Shown here: piece after piece, positions 18,446 to 29,017 of the stretch
Layout: every line of letters begins with the position of its first letter
Numbering within the stretch: the first letter of the stretch is position 1
NCBI RefSeq assembly: GCF_014840935.1
Contig: NZ_CP062005.1
Location: 1,302,001 to 1,366,000, forward strand
Length of the DNA: 64,000 bases
Direction of reading: 5' to 3'
From: Halomonas sp. YLGW01
GTDB lineage: Bacteria > Pseudomonadota > Gammaproteobacteria > Pseudomonadales > Halomonadaceae
The notes under the pieces: model-generated
The model's database searches: none
What the model saw: the letters and a program-made list of their open reading frames with translations, nothing else
Told to the model about the DNA's origin: nothing
Translations under genes and position numbers: made by a program

Positions 18446-18653
18446 CCTTGCGGGTCTTGAGGGCTTGAGCGCGGGAGAAGGGGCCGGCACTGCTCGGCGC
18501 CTGTCTGCGACCGGGACGCGCGGCGGGAGTTCCGCGGTCGTGGAAACTCCTCATGCATTCATTTGCTAGGATAACTCATGCGACCTGTCGCCTTCATGCT
18601 AGATAGGAGCGACAGGATCGCCGGAATTTTCTCAACCGCCAAGGACGTTGACG

Positions 18654-20297
18654 ATGCCATTGTTTGGATCACGCAGGGCCCGCCCCGCTCGGCCCACCGA
18701 TATTCTCGAGCGCCCGGACTATGGCTGGATATGGAAGCCGCTGCTGGGGTTGTTCGCCCTCTATCTGGTCGTGACCCTGGCCCTGGGGGGCTGGTGGAGC
18801 CTCACCCCCGCGAGCTTCGATGTGCAGCGCGCCAGCGCCGAGCAGCGTGGCCGGCTCTCGTCCGAGCGTCCGGCGAGAAACGGAAATGTCGAGAGCACAG
18901 GCCATGCAGAGAGCGTTGACACTAGCGGCTCGGCCGACGAGGCAGTGGCGAGTGACGAGGCCAGCACCCCGCCGCTGGATACCAGTCCGGCCGGCCGCGG
19001 GGCGGTGATCGCCGCGACCCAGATGACGCTGCTCGATACGCTGCTCGACAAGTCGGGTGGCTACCTCCGCAACGACATGCTGCCGCCGGGACTGTGGCTC
19101 GATAACATGCCCGCCTGGGAGTTGGGGGTGCTCCGTCAGGCCCGAGGCCTGGCGCATGCCCTGGTGGAAAAGGGGGCCGTGGAGGAGGGTGCGCTGATGG
19201 AAGCCCGGGAGCGGCTCGACGGTGATAGCCAGGATTGGCTCTACCCCTCGACGGAGCACCGCTTGGCCAAGGCCCGCGATGCTTATGCGGGGGTGCTCGC
19301 TGGATTCAACGATCAGCGACTGGCGCTGCCCGCCGAAGGCGATGTGCCGGCCTATTGGCTGTCCCGGGTGGCGCGGCGACTGGATGAGCTGACCTATCGC
19401 CTGTCGGCCAGCGTCGCCGACCCCGAGGCCCTGCGCGAGCTTGAGGTGGACGTCGACCAGCTGCCGGGGCGCACCCCTTGGTATCGCGTCGATGACATCT
19501 TCTTCGAGGCCCGTGGTCAGGCGTGGGCCCTTGAGCATCTGCTGGCGGCCATGGTGGCCGACTACGGCGATGTGGTGGCGGCCGCCGATGCCGAAGGGCT
19601 GGTGGAGCGCTTAAGTGCCGAGCTCGAGCAGGCCCAGCGGCGGCTGTGGAGCCCCGTAGTGCTCAATGGCACGGGGTTCGGCGTCTTCGCCAACCACTCG
19701 CTGATGATGGCCGCCTATACCCAGCGCGCCGCGCAGCTGGTTGAAGCGCTCTCGGGTCGCCTGGCTGGGGTCAGTGCGCCGGACGCGCCGTCTGATCCGT
19801 CCGCGCAGCAGCCCACGGCCGCCGAGGCAGCCACCCAGACAGAAACTCAGACAGAAACTCAGACAGAAACTCAGACAGAAACTCAGACAGAAACTCAGAC
19901 AGAAACTCAGACAGAAACTCAGACAGAACCCCGGCCGGAAGCCCGGCCGGAAGCCCAGGCGCCGGCAGCCGGTGAGGCGTCGTCGGATGGGCAGGCCCAG
20001 GTGTCCGTCGAGAACGAGCAGGGCGCCGAGGCCGTCGACGCCACGTCCGATGCGGCTGTGTCCTCGACAGGCGAAAGCACTGATGACAGTGCAGGTGCCG
20101 AGAGCGCCGATCATGAAGCCGGTGCCGGCGAGCAGGCAGGGGCTGATGCTGCTGGGGCCGATGGAGCGACTGAGAGCGCCGGTCAAGTAAGCCCCTCGGC
20201 ATCGGCCGCTTCATCGTCTGGCAGTGCTGAGGCGAGTGGCAGTGAGCCGTCGGCTGAATCGACAGATGACGAGGTGGCGACCCAGGGGGAAGGCTGA
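18654..20297 (+). CDS. DUF2333 family membrane-anchored protein with TQTE repeats
   Basis: 547 residues, function unknown. One membrane span at about residues 28-47 (PLLGLFALYLVVTLALGGWW) follows a short cytoplasmic N-terminus, so most of the protein should be periplasmic. The conserved body (roughly 120-360: IAATQMTLLDTLLDKSGGYLRNDMLPPG, AWELGVLRQARGLAHAL, WYRVDDIFFEARGQAWALEHLL) resembles the DUF2333 family. The last 160 residues are low-complexity: eight tandem TQTE units and then an acidic Ser/Ala/Glu-rich tail. ATG 18654 has AAGGA about 8 nt upstream. Stands alone, divergent from dsbD. Confidence 0.82.
   Translation: MPLFGSRRARPARPTDILERPDYGWIWKPLLGLFALYLVVTLALGGWWSLTPASFDVQRASAEQRGRLSSERPARNGNVESTGHAESVDTSGSADEAVASDEASTPPLDTSPAGRGAVIAATQMTLLDTLLDKSGGYLRNDMLPPGLWLDNMPAWELGVLRQARGLAHALVEKGAVEEGALMEARERLDGDSQDWLYPSTEHRLAKARDAYAGVLAGFNDQRLALPAEGDVPAYWLSRVARRLDELTYRLSASVADPEALRELEVDVDQLPGRTPWYRVDDIFFEARGQAWALEHLLAAMVADYGDVVAAADAEGLVERLSAELEQAQRRLWSPVVLNGTGFGVFANHSLMMAAYTQRAAQLVEALSGRLAGVSAPDAPSDPSAQQPTAAEAATQTETQTETQTETQTETQTETQTETQTETQTEPRPEARPEAQAPAAGEASSDGQAQVSVENEQGAEAVDATSDAAVSSTGESTDDSAGAESADHEAGAGEQAGADAAGADGATESAGQVSPSASAASSSGSAEASGSEPSAESTDDEVATQGEG
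19833..19928 (+). repeat. 12-bp minisatellite encoding (TQTE)8
   Basis: Eight in-frame copies of a 12-bp unit. Copies 2 to 8 are identical (ACTCAGACAGAA) and the first differs by one base. It lies inside the DUF2333 gene and each unit encodes Thr-Gln-Thr-Glu. Such uniform copies suggest recent slippage or unequal exchange; copy changes keep the reading frame. Confidence 0.97.
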
Positions 20298-20438: not shown

Positions 20439-20969
20439 TCAGGCCTTCTCATAGGCGGCGGCGGCCTTCTCGATGGCCTTGCGGGCGGCATCGGCGCCGT
20501 CCCAGGACTCGACCTTGACCCACTTGCCCTTCTCGAGATCCTTGTAGTTCTCGAAGAAGTGGGCGATCTGCTGGCGCAGCAGCTCGGGCAGGTCGGTCAC
20601 TTCCTGGATGTCGTCGTACAGGGCGGTGAGCTTCTGGTGCGGCACGCAGACCAGCTTGGCGTCTTCGCCGGCTTCGTCGGTCATGTTCAGGATGCCGACC
20701 GGACGGGCACGAATCACGCTGCCCGGCTGCACCGGGTAGGGAGTGACCACCAGTGCATCCAGGGCATCGCCGTCGTCGGCCAGGGTGTTCGGGATGTAGC
20801 CGTAGTTGGCCGGATAGAACATCGGCGTGGCCATGAAGCGGTCGACCAGCAGCGCGTCCAGGTCCTTGTCGATCTCGTACTTGATCGGTGCGTGGTTGGC
20901 GGGGATCTCGATGGCGACATAGACGTCGTTGGGGAGATCTTTGCCGGCGGGGATCTTGTCGAAGCTCAT
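20439..20969 (-). CDS. ppa: inorganic pyrophosphatase, family I
   Basis: Hydrolyses pyrophosphate to phosphate, pulling biosynthetic reactions forward. 176 residues, the usual size for the hexameric bacterial enzyme. The signature [20 protein letters not shown] carries the metal-binding aspartates, and the N-terminal [16 protein letters not shown] matches E. coli Ppa. Monocistronic, convergent with the DUF2333 gene. Relevant to the PPi-type phosphofructokinase at 25.6-26.8 kb, which competes for the same substrate. Confidence 0.97.
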
Positions 20970-21148
20970 CGTGGCGTCCTTGGGTGGGCAGTAATCGTTG
21001 CCTGTTTAGTCCGGCGAATTATACGAACTGCGTGGCGTGATTACCAATGCGACCAAGGCCGCCAGCCCCTGAGGCGCCTTCGAGCGTGTATGATAGGCCT
21101 GCCCTTCGTCGGGAGGGCGTGTGGCCGCCGGATCAAGGAGAAAAGCAG

Positions 21149-22861
21149 GTGGATTCCGAGTTAGCGCTGAGCGTGGGGCAAGCCTTCGTGGCCCCCGAAC
21201 GGCGACATCACCGCAGTTCGATGTCGGTGCGCATACCCGAGTCTCGATTGTTGGCGCTGAAGGGCGCCTGCGCACTGATCAGCGACTCGAGCTCCCGCAA
21301 TGCTATTGCCAAGCAGGCCGGCGAACTCAGCGTGCGCGGCTTTCTGGCCGACTATATCTCGACTCCCGAGCACTGGGACATCAAGACCTCGGCCACCCGA
21401 GTGCTGCGGGCGCTCAATGGCTGGTGTCACAGCCAGAGCGGCCATGTCTCCGGGGGCAGCTACGTCTGCTCGCTGTCGGCGATGATCTATCGGGGCCGCG
21501 AGGCGCACCTCTTTCACATGGGCGACACTCTGATCTTTCGCCTGCGTGGCGCCGAGTTCGAACAGCTCTCCCGGGATCATGTCACTGACCTCGGCGGCTA
21601 TCGCTACCCGTCCCGGGCGCTGGGCATGGACGCCAACCTGGACATCGATTATGTCACGCTGCCCCTGAAGCAGGGCGATATCTTCCTGTTCACCACCCAG
21701 GCGGTGCGCGGCACTCTGATGCCCTCCGATTACGTGCAGCTGATTCGAAAGGACGCCAGCGATCTGGATGCCGCCTGCGAGCGACTGGCCGCCACTGCCT
21801 TGGAGCGGGCACAGGAGCGAGGCTACGGGGGGGAGCAGTTCTGTTTCCAGCTGGTGCGCCTCGACCGGCTCCCGGAAGAAGTCGCCGAAGTGCCGGAGCG
21901 GCTCTATGGCGATCTCCCCGTGCCGCCGGAGCTGAGCCCGGGGCAGCGGCTCGATGGCCTGGAGGTTCGGGACGTCCTGTCCCGCACGGCCCAGTCACGG
22001 GTCTATCGAGTGCTCGATCCGCGCAGCGGCCGCGAGATGGTCATGAAGGCGCCGAGTCCCGAGCTTTCCAACCGCAACGCCTACCTGGAGCACTTCCTGC
22101 TGCAGCAGTGGGTCGTCGAGAGGGTCAGGTCGCCCTTCGTGGCTCGAGTCGTGGAGCCCGCGCGCCCGCGCACCCATCTCTACTACCTGATGAACCTGGT
22201 GGAGGGCGAGCGGCTGTCCGACTGGGCCCAGCGTCATCCCCGGGCGACCCTGGCCCAGCGGCTGGATATTGCCCGCCAGCTGGCCAAGGCGGTGCAGGCC
22301 CTGCATCGTCGTGACCTGCTGCATCAGCAGATCCATCCCGACAATATTCTGGTGGATACCCATGGTCAGGTGGTGCTGGCCGACTTCAGTGCCTGCCGGC
22401 TGCGTGAGGGCGACGGGCACAAGCAGTCGCGGGAGCTGGCTCGTCAGCTGGGTCTCACCGAACACAGTGCGCCGGAGTATGCCCTGGACGACGATGTAGG
22501 ACGACGCAGCGATCAGTACGCCCTGGCGTCGACGATCTACTGGTTGCTGACCGGCGGTTTGCCCTACGATGTGCCGCCGCATCAGTTGAGAAGCCATACC
22601 GACCTGGAGCGGCTGAGCTACCGAAGCGCGTCCCTGCAGAACCCGGAGGTGCCTCAGGCACTGGACGAGGCCCTGAGGCGCGCCCTGGACCCGCAGCGGG
22701 CGCTGCGTTTCCGCCGCCTCTCGGAGCTTCTGGTGGCGCTGCGCGAACCGCGCCGTGAGGGGGAGCTCGCCAAGGCATCGACCTCGGCCCCCGGCCGTTT
22801 CTGGCCGGGGGTGGCGGGGCTGCTGCTGGCGCTGCTGGTGGTGTCCTGGCTGCTGCGCTAG
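21149..22861 (+). CDS. PP2C-like / protein-kinase-like fusion, catalytic residues degenerate
   Basis: 570 residues from a GTG start that has AAGGAG 9 nt upstream. Residues about 25-240 follow the PP2C phosphatase fold, 265-540 a Ser/Thr kinase fold, and the last 20 (FWPGVAGLLLALLVVSWLLR) form a membrane anchor. The family is the bifunctional kinase/phosphatase known from Pseudomonas-type genomes. Key positions have changed: TQAV (182-186) where PP2Cs have TDGV, GEQF (228-231) where DN is expected, and HQQIHPDN (392-399) where kinases have an HxD catalytic Asp. Also DFS replaces DFG at 412. Lys300, Asn399, the GD at 125-126 and APE 441-443 remain. It may be a signalling scaffold rather than an enzyme. 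The stop codon lies in the IS target duplication. Confidence 0.85.
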   Translation: MDSELALSVGQAFVAPERRHHRSSMSVRIPESRLLALKGACALISDSSSRNAIAKQAGELSVRGFLADYISTPEHWDIKTSATRVLRALNGWCHSQSGHVSGGSYVCSLSAMIYRGREAHLFHMGDTLIFRLRGAEFEQLSRDHVTDLGGYRYPSRALGMDANLDIDYVTLPLKQGDIFLFTTQAVRGTLMPSDYVQLIRKDASDLDAACERLAATALERAQERGYGGEQFCFQLVRLDRLPEEVAEVPERLYGDLPVPPELSPGQRLDGLEVRDVLSRTAQSRVYRVLDPRSGREMVMKAPSPELSNRNAYLEHFLLQQWVVERVRSPFVARVVEPARPRTHLYYLMNLVEGERLSDWAQRHPRATLAQRLDIARQLAKAVQALHRRDLLHQQIHPDNILVDTHGQVVLADFSACRLREGDGHKQSRELARQLGLTEHSAPEYALDDDVGRRSDQYALASTIYWLLTGGLPYDVPPHQLRSHTDLERLSYRSASLQNPEVPQALDEALRRALDPQRALRFRRLSELLVALREPRREGELAKASTSAPGRFWPGVAGLLLALLVVSWLLR

Positions 22862-22878: not shown

Positions 22879-23668
22879 TAATTTGCTAATGCTTTCCATG
22901 CCTCAACTCCATAGGTTACGCATGGCAGGACGCTACGAACTCTCCGACGCAAGCCAAGCTAGCAGGTGTTCTGATACACCGTCTCACCACCTTAGACAAT
23001 GGGTCGCCCGCGCAGGGATGGCCGCCAAATGCTGAACGGGATCTTTTGGATCTTGTGCTCCGGCGCCAAATGGCGTGATCTCCCGGAGAGGTATGGTTCC
23101 TGGAAGACGATGTGTGACCGCTCCCGGCAATGGCGAGACGATGGCACTTTCGAGGCGGTTCTAGATCGGCTCCACCTCAAGCTGTGTGAGGATGGGCTGA
23201 TGGATCCCGGCACGTGGGTGATCGACTCGACATCGATCCGCGCTCCCCGAACAGCCTCTGGAGGCGGCAAAAAGGAGTTAGCAAGACCCCGTAGACCATG
23301 CCTTGGGACGGAGTCGAGGCGGTCTGACGACCAAGATTCACATGGTCTGTGATCGGCAGGGATGGCCGCTGACCTTCACTCTGTCGGCCAGGACAGGACT
23401 CAGAGACATGGCACTTTATTTCCACCATGGAGCGCGTTCAACTGCCTGCCCCCTCCGCCACGATGAAGCGAAAACCGCGTCCTGGTGCTCCGTGGGACTT
23501 CGATAAGCCTCGCTATCGAGAGCGAAACATCATTGAGCGTTGTTTCGGCTGGATCAAGGAACTGTGCCGGGCCTGCACCCGTTACGACAAGTTGGTCAGC
23601 AGTTTCGGGGCAATGATATGCCTTGCTTGCATAGACCGTTGCTTGCGTGCCGACTTTTCAGACAGAAC
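22862..23668 (+). mobile_element. decayed IS5-family (IS427-like) insertion sequence
   Basis: About 807 bp bounded by inverted repeats (22862-22878 and 23652-23668, 14 of 17 bases matching) and by the 4-bp duplication CTAG on each side. The internal transposase is broken in several frames and has an internal deletion, so the copy is dead. The terminal GAAAAGTC core, CTAG target and size fit the IS427 subgroup of IS5; the exact named IS cannot be settled without a database. Confidence 0.88.
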
Positions 23669-25553: not shown

Positions 25554-26813
25554 TCAGAGAGTAAAGGTCGGCAGCTTGCGCTCGACGCGGGCCAGCTTCA
25601 AGTGCGCCACCCGGGGCAGGCCGTTGTCGAAGGGCGGGAAATCTTCGCCTTGGATCAGCGGCGACAGATAGCGGCGGCAGGCCTCGGTGATGCCGAAACC
25701 GTCCTCGCGGATGAAGTCCTTGGGCATGAACTTCTCCTGGTTGGCGATCTCGCTCAGGGGTGCGGCCCCGATCTCCCAGGCATAGGGCGACTCGCTGACG
25801 CGGTCGATGGTTGGCATCATGGCGTTCTCGCCGGCCACCGCCAGCTCCACCGCCTTCTCGCCGACGGCATAGGCCTGGTCGACGTCGGTCTTGGAGGCCA
25901 GGTGGCGGGCGGCGCGCTGCAGGTAGTCGGCGACCGCCCAGTGGTACTTGTAGCCCAGGTCCTGCTTGACCATGCCGGCCAGTGTCGGCGCCACGCCGCC
26001 CAGCTGGCGGTGACCGAAGGCGTCGGTGTTGCCGGAGTCGGCCAGGAATGTGCCGTCCTCGTAGCGGGCGCCCTCGGACACCACGATCACGCAGTAGCCA
26101 TAGTTCTTGACCGCCTCGTCGACCCGGGCCATCACCGCCTTTCGATCGAAGGCGACCTCGGGGAAGATCACCAGATGCGGCGGCTGGCCCTCGCCTTCGC
26201 CAGCCAGGGCGCCGGCCGCGGCGATCCAGCCGGCATGGCGGCCCATCACCTCGAGCACGAAGACCTTGGTCGAGGTGGCACACATGGAAGCGATGTCCAG
26301 CGAGGCCTCAAGGGTCGAGGTGGCAATGTACTTGGCCACGCTGCCGAAGCCCGGGGAGTTGTCGGTGATCGGCAGGTCGTTGTCGACGGTCTTGGGCACG
26401 TGAATGGCGGTCAGCGGGTAGCCCATCTTCTCGGACAGCTGGGAGACCTTGAGGCAGGTGTCGGCGCTGTCGCCGCCGCCGTTATAGAAGAAGTAACGGA
26501 TGTCGTGCGCCTTGAAGACCTCGATCAAGCGTTCGTACTGGGCGCGATGGGTCTCGATGTCCTTGAGCTTGTAGCGGCAGGAGCCGAAGGCGCCGCCTGG
26601 GGTGTGGCGCAGCGCCGCGATGGTCTCGTCGGACTCCTGGGAGACGTCGATCAGATCCTCGGTCAGGGCGCCGATGATGCCGTTGTGGCCGGCGTAGACC
26701 TTGCCGATCTTGTCGTCGTGGCGACGGCACGCTTCGATCACGCCGCAGGCGCTGGCATTGATGACGGCGGTGACGCCACCGGACTGGGCATAGAAGGCGT
26801 TGTGCTGGGCCAT
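25554..26813 (-). CDS. pfp: pyrophosphate-dependent 6-phosphofructokinase
   Basis: Phosphorylates fructose 6-phosphate, probably with PPi, and is reversible. 419 residues, longer than the 320 of E. coli PfkA. The PKTVDNDL segment (140-147) has the Lys-Thr pair of PPi enzymes where ATP enzymes have a Gly-Thr pair. The phosphoryl-donor loop reads NGGGDSADT (111-119): its Asp directly before Ser is the PPi-type residue, but the preceding Asp of the usual GGDDS is Gly here. EVMGRHAGWIAAA is the sugar-phosphate-binding segment. Monocistronic. Donor specificity is inferred from residues only. Confidence 0.88.
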   Translation of the reverse strand: MAQHNAFYAQSGGVTAVINASACGVIEACRRHDDKIGKVYAGHNGIIGALTEDLIDVSQESDETIAALRHTPGGAFGSCRYKLKDIETHRAQYERLIEVFKAHDIRYFFYNGGGDSADTCLKVSQLSEKMGYPLTAIHVPKTVDNDLPITDNSPGFGSVAKYIATSTLEASLDIASMCATSTKVFVLEVMGRHAGWIAAAGALAGEGEGQPPHLVIFPEVAFDRKAVMARVDEAVKNYGYCVIVVSEGARYEDGTFLADSGNTDAFGHRQLGGVAPTLAGMVKQDLGYKYHWAVADYLQRAARHLASKTDVDQAYAVGEKAVELAVAGENAMMPTIDRVSESPYAWEIGAAPLSEIANQEKFMPKDFIREDGFGITEACRRYLSPLIQGEDFPPFDNGLPRVAHLKLARVERKLPTFTL

Positions 26814-26982: not shown

Positions 26983-28359
26983 ATGCACGTACATATTCTT
27001 GGAATCTGCGGCACCTTCATGGGCAGCCTGGCGCTGCTGGCTCGCGAGCTGGGCCATCGGGTCAGCGGGTCGGATGCCAATGTCTATCCGCCGATGAGCA
27101 CCCAGCTCGAGGCCGCGGGGATCACCCTGCAGGACGGCTACGAGGGAGGCAATCTCGCGCCGCGCCCGGATCTGGTGATCATCGGCAACGCCCTGTCCCG
27201 GGGTAACCCGGAGGTCGAGGAAGTGCTCAAGGCACGCCTGCCCTATGTATCCGGTCCCCAGTGGCTCGCCGAGCATGTGTTGCCCGGGCGACGGGTGATC
27301 GCCGTGGCCGGCACTCACGGCAAGACCACCACGGCGAGCCTCACCGCCTGGCTGCTCGAGGCTGCGGGCCTCGCGCCCGGCTTCCTGATCGGCGGGGTGC
27401 CGCGCAACTTCGGCGTCTCGGCGCGCTTGGGGGCGCCTGATGCGCCCTTCGTGGTCGAGGCCGACGAGTACGACACCGCCTTCTTCGACAAGCGTTCCAA
27501 GTTCGTGCACTACCGTCCCGAGATCGCGGTGCTCAACAATCTCGAGTTCGACCACGCCGATATCTTCCCCGACCTCGCCGCCATCGAGCGTCAGTTCCAC
27601 CACCTGGTGCGCACCGTGCCGGGCGACGGCGCGCTGCTGGTAGCCGACGGTGAGCCGGCCCTCGAGCGCGTGCTGGAGCAGGGAGCCTGGACGCCGATCA
27701 GTCGTTTCGGTGCCGCCGATGACAGCGACTGGCGACTCATCCTCGAGGCCCCCGATGCCAGCCGTTTCAGGGTGCAGCATGTCGATGAGAGGGGCGGCGA
27801 GGAAGCGACCGTGCACTGGGCGCTGAGCGGCGAGTACAACGCCCGCAACGCACTGGCCGCGCTGGCGGCCGCCCATGCTCTCGGCGTCGGTCTCGAGACG
27901 GGCGCGGCGGCGCTGTCGCGCTTCGAGAGCCCGAGGCGGCGCCAGGAGCTGCGCGGCGAGGTCGCCGGCATTCGAGTCATCGACGACTTCGCCCATCACC
28001 CCACCGCCATCTCAGCGACGCTTGACGGCCTGAAGGCTGGCGGCGACGGACGCCTGCTGGCGGTGATCGAACCGCGCTCCAACACCATGCGGCTGGGCAC
28101 CCTGCGCGCGCGGCTGGCCGAGAGCGTGGCCGCGGCCGATGCGGTCTGGTGGTATCAGCCCGCGGGGCTCGACTGGTCGCTGGATGAGGTGGTCGCGACG
28201 AGTGCCTCACCGTCGCAGGTGATTGACGATATCGATGCGCTGGTGGCCGCGGTGGTCGCCGAGGCTTGCCCCGGCGATCGCATCGTGGCGATGTCCAATG
28301 GCGGCTTCGGCGGCATCCACGAGCGGCTGCTTGCCGCCCTGGAGGTGGCCCATGGCTGA
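26983..28359 (+). CDS. mpl: UDP-N-acetylmuramate:L-Ala-gamma-D-Glu-meso-DAP ligase
   Basis: Peptidoglycan recycling enzyme that joins recovered murein tripeptide to UDP-MurNAc. 458 residues. Mur-ligase features: N-terminal nucleotide fold [22 protein letters not shown], the P-loop [45 protein letters not shown] and the C-terminal [19 protein letters not shown] and [11 protein letters not shown] mark Mpl rather than MurC. ATG 26983 has AGGAGG about 7 nt upstream. ubiX overlaps its end. Confidence 0.95.
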
Positions 28360-29017
28360 GCCGCAGATGACAAAGACTGACGACTTCGCCTTCCCGGTCA
28401 CGGTAGCGCTGACCGGTGCCTCCGGAGCCCAGTACGGCCTGCGCCTGATCGAGGCCCTGGTGGCGGCCAATCATGAAGTCTGGGTGATGATCTCCAAGGC
28501 CGCGCACCTGGTGATCGCCACCGAGACCGACATCAAGCTTCCGGCCCAGCCCGAACGCCTGGCCGAGGCGCTGGTTGCGCGCAGCGGGGCGGCGGCGGGG
28601 CAGATACGCTGCTTCGCCCGGGAAGACTGGATGGCGCCGGTGGCCTCGGGCTCCGGGGCGCCCAGCGCAATGGTGGTCTGTCCGTGCTCCACCGGCTCGC
28701 TGTCGGCGATCGCCTGTGGTGCCAGCAACAACTTGATCGAGCGGGCCGCGGACGTGGCCCTCAAGGAACGTCGCACCCTGGTGCTGGTGCCCAGGGAAAC
28801 GCCGTTCTCGGCGATCCATCTCGAGCACATGCTGAGCCTGACCAGGATGGGGGCGGTGATTCTGCCGGCGGCGCCGGGCTTCTATCATCAGCCCGGTAGC
28901 ATCGATGATCTGATCGACTTCATCGTCGCAAGGATTCTCAATCAGCTGGGCATCGAGCACCGGCTGATGCCCCGCTGGGGCGAGCCGACGGGACGCGACG
29001 ACGGGGAGGCGCCATGA
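28352..29017 (+). CDS. ubiX: flavin prenyltransferase UbiX
   Basis: Makes prenylated FMN, the cofactor of the UbiD decarboxylase of ubiquinone synthesis. 221 residues. N-terminal flavodoxin-like [45 protein letters not shown] and the [24 protein letters not shown] segment are all typical UbiX. ATG 28352 overlaps the mpl stop by 8 bp and has GGAGG 6 nt upstream; an open frame reaching back to 28223 lies inside mpl. ubiD is not in the window. Confidence 0.94.

Follow-up and report, generated by a model that had tools for sequence, protein, structure and literature searches.

A PP2C/Hanks-kinase fusion of Halomonadaceae as a predicted double pseudoenzyme and possible membrane-tethered binding protein

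Why would a bacterium keep a fused phosphatase and kinase when catalytic residues appear to be missing from both? The question is raised by a gene at 21149..22861 (+) of the window, i.e. the whole stretch of 64,000 nucleotides from Halomonas sp. YLGW01 that was analyzed. Its reading frame is open throughout from a GTG start with the Shine-Dalgarno sequence AAGGAG (21135..21140, +) just 5' of it and encodes 570 amino acids, confirming the intact frame described in an earlier note on this DNA. A -10-like TATGAT lies at 21089..21094 (+), and the consensus of 80 intergenic loci retains both AGGAG and a -10-like GTGTAT.AT on the pseudoenzyme side of the spacer that separates the gene from ppa. The protein is composed of a PP2C-like half (residues 1-240; 21149..21868, +), a Hanks-kinase-like half (residues 271-535; 21959..22753, +), and a C-terminal hydrophobic helix (residues 551-569; 22799..22855, +). 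Specifically, the Pfam Pkinase profile matched at 81.8 bits (cut-off 31.7; E 7e-23) and the top Foldseek match was PknB (TMt 0.84), identifying a Hanks-type Ser/Thr kinase fold; because kinases dominate among the 50 matches listed, this top match concerns the kinase half. The PP2C half scored 19.3 bits with PP2C_2 (E 9e-4), under the cut-off of 24 bits for this curated profile, compared to 55.8 and 56.7 bits for two canonical relatives, and gave only weak matches to PDB sequences (best E 0.023). The AlphaFold2 model (mean pLDDT 86.3, pTM 0.55; for one canonical relative, 84.8 and 0.66) contains a helix at 551-569, which is likely transmembrane, as expected if the membrane anchor is kept.

As a reference we used canonical fusions, i.e. 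proteins with the same architecture and length and 32-39% identity to the pseudo form, which NCBI usually names bifunctional protein-serine/threonine kinase/phosphatase. The 90 canonical proteins comprise 67 from the order (a fetched subset of the order-level and family matches, picked by score and family), nine of them paralogues within Halomonadaceae, and 23 from a phylum-wide sample, in which three of 26 loci were dropped as duplicates or short. They were compared with 113 distinct pseudo-type proteins, all from Halomonadaceae (20 coded genera and named records); a PP2C-only paralogue of 250 amino acids (L142) and a sequence with ambiguous residues (L210) were left out, and one included protein (L123, from genome G037) is frameshifted after approximately residue 424 and contributes odd letters past that point. 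The window protein aligned end to end with a canonical relative at 37% identity, so that a shift of the alignment near TDG or HRD is ruled out. In another canonical relative, ADG, TDG, and DN of the PP2C half are in register with solved PP2C phosphatases, and the ATP Lys, alphaC Glu, HRD, and DFG of the kinase half with a solved Ser/Thr kinase.

The acids of the PP2C motifs NED, ADG, TDG, and DN have active-site roles. Where a canonical relative has NEDS, IADG, STDG, and DN, the window protein has HRSS, ISDS, TTQA, and EQ. In the first motif, R22-S23 stands in place of a canonical [E/Q/D]-D, and both residues are invariant in the pseudo-type proteins (113/113 each) whereas D23 is found in all 90 canonical proteins; we take the D of N[E/Q]D at position 23 to be a PP2C active-site residue, the PDB alignment stopping short of the NED stretch. 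In the second motif, S47 replaces the Gly of ADG. In the third, Q184 replaces the TDG aspartate, which is present in 90/90 canonical proteins, and the pseudo-type proteins have Q (99), R (9), or P (5). Because proteins were sorted into the two groups by residue 184, the count at this position is circular; this does not apply to the trees or to the counts at residues 23, 319, and 394, and residues 184 and 394 did not conflict in a single protein. Based on TQAV and GEQF, the earlier note had proposed that two metal-binding acids are gone; both stretches read as described (TTQAV and GYGGEQF), and the loss at residue 184 holds, while the second does not. E229 aligns on the D of DN, and an acid is kept at this position in 105 of 113 relatives (D 72, E 33, other 8), making E229 a conservative change rather than a clean loss. 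Instead, the loss of the NED aspartate had been overlooked. D46 of ADG and D126 are kept in 113/113, and an additional pseudo-type protein read later (L273) lacks D46 as well. Thus, the PP2C half has S23 and Q184 in place of two aspartates expected of a catalytic PP2C/PPM phosphatase, though D46 and the acid at 229 remain.

In the kinase half, VMK, LQQW, HQQIHPDN, and DFSAC of the window protein correspond to VMK, LESW, HQDIKPDN, and DFGSC of a canonical relative. The HQQ in place of HxD and DFS in place of DFG that had been reported are both borne out (HQQIHPDN and ADFSA), and two further losses are evident, i.e. the alphaC Glu (Q319) and the catalytic-loop Lys/Arg (H396). All four features expected of a catalytic Hanks kinase are accordingly replaced in the window protein (Q394 for the HRD Asp, Q319, S414 for the DFG Gly, and H396). 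Position 319 is Q in 113/113 pseudo-type proteins and the alphaC Glu in 90/90 canonical proteins. Similarly, D394 is present in 90/90 canonical proteins, while the pseudo-type proteins have Q (61), R (36), G (4), A (4), L (2), N (2), H (2), K (1), or S (1). Q or R accounts for 97/113, and position 394 ranks with the most variable columns (entropy rank 91%). DFG is retained in 8/113 and in two of five extra pseudo-type proteins (10/118); on this pattern, the loss of DFG is a later event than the other losses or one that occurred more than once. By contrast to the losses, the nucleotide-side residues, i.e. ATP Lys, catalytic-loop Asn, and DFG Asp, are still in place in the window protein as K300, N399, and D412, and are kept in 111, 110, and 113 of the 113 pseudo-type proteins, respectively, with E443 kept in 112; Lys300, Asn399, and the APE motif (SAPEY) are therefore retained as claimed.

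Is this an accident of one genome? A match at E <= 1e-20 was present in 272 of 275 Halomonadaceae genomes and in 24/24 genera, including all 254 genomes that are >=90% complete and <=5% contaminated. The three genomes without a match, even at a looser cut-off, are 88, 86, and 71% complete. In Onishia, six of seven genomes have the fusion and the seventh has a weak kinase match only. These matches were scored by search, and residues were read in 118 proteins rather than in most matches: the 113 described above and five further ones that cover the remaining four genera and bring the total to 24. D23, D184, E319, and D394 are absent from 118/118, excluding chance as the source of the losses. The earlier note had recommended alignment with active bifunctional homologues and an estimate of dN/dS; the former shows that the acids are present in 90/90 canonical proteins and absent throughout the pseudo clade, and the latter is low. 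In Onishia (six sequences; dS was usable in 12 of the 15 pairs), Nei-Gojobori dN/dS is 0.064 for the whole fusion, 0.019 for the PP2C half, 0.047 for the kinase half, and 0.55 for the C-terminal 35 residues, compared to 0.014 for ppa, 0.042 for pfp, and 0.134 for dsbD. For the pseudo clade as a whole, 839 pairs gave a median of 0.183 at dS values close to saturation; canonical values (nine pairs) were saturated and discarded. The gene is thus under purifying selection, and the losses shared across the clade, the low dN/dS, and the presence in nearly every genome support the claim of a double pseudoenzyme under constraint.

The genes around the fusions point to where the pseudo form may have come from. 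A NarK-type or FNT transporter gene lies directly upstream in 51 of the 67 canonical loci (27 MFS, 24 FNT), four of the 16 others having less than 600 bases of upstream sequence, and within 2.6 kb upstream in 22 of the 23 canonical fusions from the phylum-wide sample. One MFS partner passes the NCBI NarK model and its divergent neighbour the NirB model. The pseudo form shares the fused PP2C, kinase, and C-terminal hydrophobic helix with these transporter-linked fusions, as well as length and end-to-end alignment, but it differs in having lost D23, D184, E319, and D394 and in that no NarK/FNT transporter gene was found upstream of any of the 113 pseudo loci (0.65 to 2.6 kb searched). In the window, the fusion is followed by pfp, encoding a PPi-dependent phosphofructokinase (25554..26813, -; NF010675, E 1e-195), mpl, encoding murein peptide ligase (26983..28359, +; TIGR01081, 617 bits, cut-off 388.7), and a frame holding ubiX (28223..29017, +; TIGR00421 above cut-off at residues 60-252, so that the true start is probably further in), and is preceded by the divergent ppa, encoding inorganic pyrophosphatase (20439..20969, -; NF002317). 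The mpl and ubiX flank is common to the pseudo locus and NarK-type fusion loci. Within approximately 13.8 kb per locus, ppa or mpl is nearby in seven of ten NarK-type loci (ppa in four) but in none of the 11 that represent the other canonical type. The order in a NarK-type locus (L172) is ubiX, mpl, X, fusion, narK, and then divergent nirB, nirD, and ppa; in a Halomonadaceae locus (L183) it is ubiX, mpl, pfp, X, pseudo fusion, and then divergent ppa. In most Halomonadaceae loci seen, narK-nirBD is absent and ppa abuts the fusion. We infer that loss of narK, nirB, and nirD from between ppa and the fusion is the simplest account.

In a tree of 98 proteins (31 pseudo, 67 canonical), the pseudo-type proteins formed one clade with SH-aLRT support of 100, and they did so again with 100/100 in a second tree of 69 proteins (19 pseudo, 27 canonical, 23 phylum-wide), for which we picked the pseudo and canonical proteins and omitted the long-branched canonical ones of the first tree. 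In the second tree, a clade of 35 proteins (100/99) excludes the pseudo clade and is mainly FNT-linked, also holding two MFS-linked proteins and two without a detected transporter; the remaining, mostly NarK-linked proteins adjoin the pseudo clade. Three more MFS-linked proteins lie on the FNT side of the first tree. Because the trees are unrooted and the pseudo branch is long, the place of the pseudo clade beside the NarK group is suggestive only, and synteny and trees together are suggestive of an origin on the NarK side.

If both catalytic centers were given up, did both halves then change in the same way? After reducing redundancy to 31 pseudo and 41 canonical proteins, with thresholds and motif windows of our choice, columns newly fixed in the pseudo clade made up 39/235 of the PP2C half versus 17/265 of the kinase half (Fisher p 3e-4), and within the PP2C half they made up 14/49 in the old catalytic motifs versus 25/186 elsewhere (p 0.017); the p values are rough because columns are not independent, and clustering was judged by sequence position alone. 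With 12 pseudo-type proteins, the counts were 36/235 versus 8/265 for the halves and 13/49 versus 23/186 for motifs and elsewhere. Because new fixation is concentrated in the PP2C half while the HRD-Asp position drifts, it looks as if the dead phosphatase site was rebuilt and frozen and the kinase base was released, with the nucleotide-binding residues staying.

Our working hypothesis, to which we assign a probability of roughly 0.55, is that an orphaned regulator of a nitrate locus became a Halomonadaceae-wide double pseudoenzyme that serves as a membrane-tethered binding or sensor protein. In this scheme, narK-nirB-nirD would have disappeared from the stretch separating ppa and the fusion in the ancestor of Halomonadaceae, so that the regulator was left without its operon, and both catalytic centers would have been lost before Halomonadaceae radiated. 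The former PP2C pocket (R22, S23, S47, R50, N51, and Q184) would have been rebuilt and frozen as a site for a ligand or partner, while the kinase half would probably still bind nucleotide-Mg via K300, N399, and D412 and not transfer phosphate. Held in the inner membrane by its C-terminal tail and exposed to the cytoplasm, the protein could bind another protein in a conformation-dependent manner as a sensor or scaffold. Inactivity of both halves throughout the family is deduced from sequence; on that footing, binding and not catalysis is probably how the protein signals, and a role as a membrane-bound sensor or scaffold is plausible and the reading that we prefer. More tentatively, the PP2C metal center may have become a fixed binding pocket for a ligand or a phosphoprotein that is read through the nucleotide-binding pseudokinase, giving a near-universal non-catalytic membrane sensor.

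We also considered that the fusion still binds and regulates, without catalysis, a nitrate/nitrite transporter encoded elsewhere. The transporter linkage of most canonical fusions favors this idea, as do two genes found elsewhere in the window genome, one for an FNT protein and one for a distant NarK-like MFS protein (matched in two pieces, 35 and 38%); the genome also has three NIR_SIR matches, which fall at two places. However, the linkage is missing from all 113 pseudo loci over the 0.65 to 2.6 kb searched, and sigma54 and NtrC consensus sites occur in none of 81 intergenic regions, a relaxed NtrC pattern matching in one, so that nitrogen control by sigma54/NtrC was rejected and the transporter idea is unlikely. 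Alternatively, the kinase half could bind ATP-Mg and carry out another reaction or act as a weak kinase. There is precedent in SelO, which catalyzes nucleotidyl transfer, and because D46, D126, K300, N399, and D412 are retained and position 229 is mostly acidic, metal or nucleotide binding and residual or altered chemistry are possible. Nevertheless, the alphaC Glu is gone in every pseudo-type protein, the HRD-Asp site drifts among nine residues unlike a re-used catalytic residue, and the new fixed columns are concentrated in the other half; we regard repurposed chemistry as quite unlikely.

The neighbors Ppa and PPi-dependent phosphofructokinase raise the further idea that the fusion regulates pyrophosphate metabolism. 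In 81 near-relative loci (the best 80 of 172 confirmed loci plus the window), ppa is adjoining and divergent in all (gap 174-478) and pfp is convergent in 79. Yet, when Halomonadaceae were sampled more widely (11 loci), ppa adjoined the fusion in nine, was approximately 5 kb away in one (L185), and was not seen in one (L184), and pfp was seen in only six; moreover, because ppa is already near four of the ten NarK-type fusions, loss of the intervening genes can account for its position next to the pseudo form. The proximity of ppa and pfp may be incidental, and this idea is very unlikely. Finally, a decaying relic without function is scarcely credible: catalytic residues are gone, a frame change splits the gene in G037 (99% complete), and the copies in G102, G199, G222, and G266 (76, 89, 86, and 74% complete) are split or broken, with sequencing error as a likely cause in these four. 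Near-universal presence, low dN/dS, and the conserved -10-like element and Shine-Dalgarno sequence nevertheless contradict a relic, and conservation and dN/dS rule out recent decay.

Pseudoenzymes have been studied mostly in eukaryotes, and Halomonadaceae are mostly environmental halophiles. The PPM pseudophosphatases PHLPP2 and TAB1 are not known to be fused to a kinase. They share the PP2C fold and lost metal acids with the window protein but are not bacterial; according to PMC12002173, PHLPP2 lost its acids long ago, has been retained since with a proposed scaffold role, and was reported to bind one zinc ion. Among bacterial pseudokinases, the GLW family, as described in PMC12599244, likewise has a degraded HRD, but with GLW in its place where the window protein has HQQ and the pseudo clade HQ-X; the window protein is not a GLW pseudokinase. 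"PP2C" does not occur in the main text of this bacterial pseudokinase review, nor do "fused", "fusion", "nitrate", or "nitrite" occur in a review that covers the Hanks kinases and phosphatases of bacteria (PMC6213207). The open-access literature searched, a scope beyond which most subscription papers lie, yielded no description of this protein. What would set this protein apart is that catalytic residues are gone from two opposed enzyme domains of one bacterial protein at once. With canonical relatives as controls, a traceable origin in an apparent transporter-operon loss, and newly fixed residues to mutate, the role of a dead kinase/phosphatase becomes a directly testable question, and the name kinase/phosphatase given by homology would mislead.

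Two other assignments were discarded. Neither a second full-length fusion nor another PP2C_2 match occurs in the window genome (SpoIIE-type phosphatases being outside the search), and therefore the protein is not the inactive partner of a local canonical paralogue of this type. A defence-system kinase was rejected because the PADLOC and MADS6 matches cover the generic kinase fold (MADS6 113 versus a cut-off of 460); a canonical relative matches the same models. The one other Pkinase (PF00069) match in the genome is a protein of 607 amino acids with HGDIKPSN and DWG motifs (L002 1372-3195); immediately upstream of it lies a gene whose product, on visual inspection, resembles a lipoyl-domain acyltransferase. 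Elsewhere, a lone PP2C-half paralogue with 31% identity lies approximately 2 kb upstream of a canonical fusion (L192; G167:C1 413484-414209 and 416119-417807). Within the window, the ppa side of the intergenic region (20970-21148) contains conserved GAATTATACGA and GATTACCAAT blocks, perhaps the ppa promoter. The spacing between the pseudoenzyme gene and pfp is approximately 2.7 kb versus a median of 133 bases (79 loci), suggesting that approximately 2.6 kb were inserted; at 22999-23352 lies a fragment of an IS5-family transposase (117 amino acids; NF033580, 89.7 bits, under the cut-off of 110). Beyond ppa, at 18648-20297, lies a gene for a DUF2333 protein whose C-terminal half carries a run of TETQ repeats; 41 of the 81 loci have a homologue.
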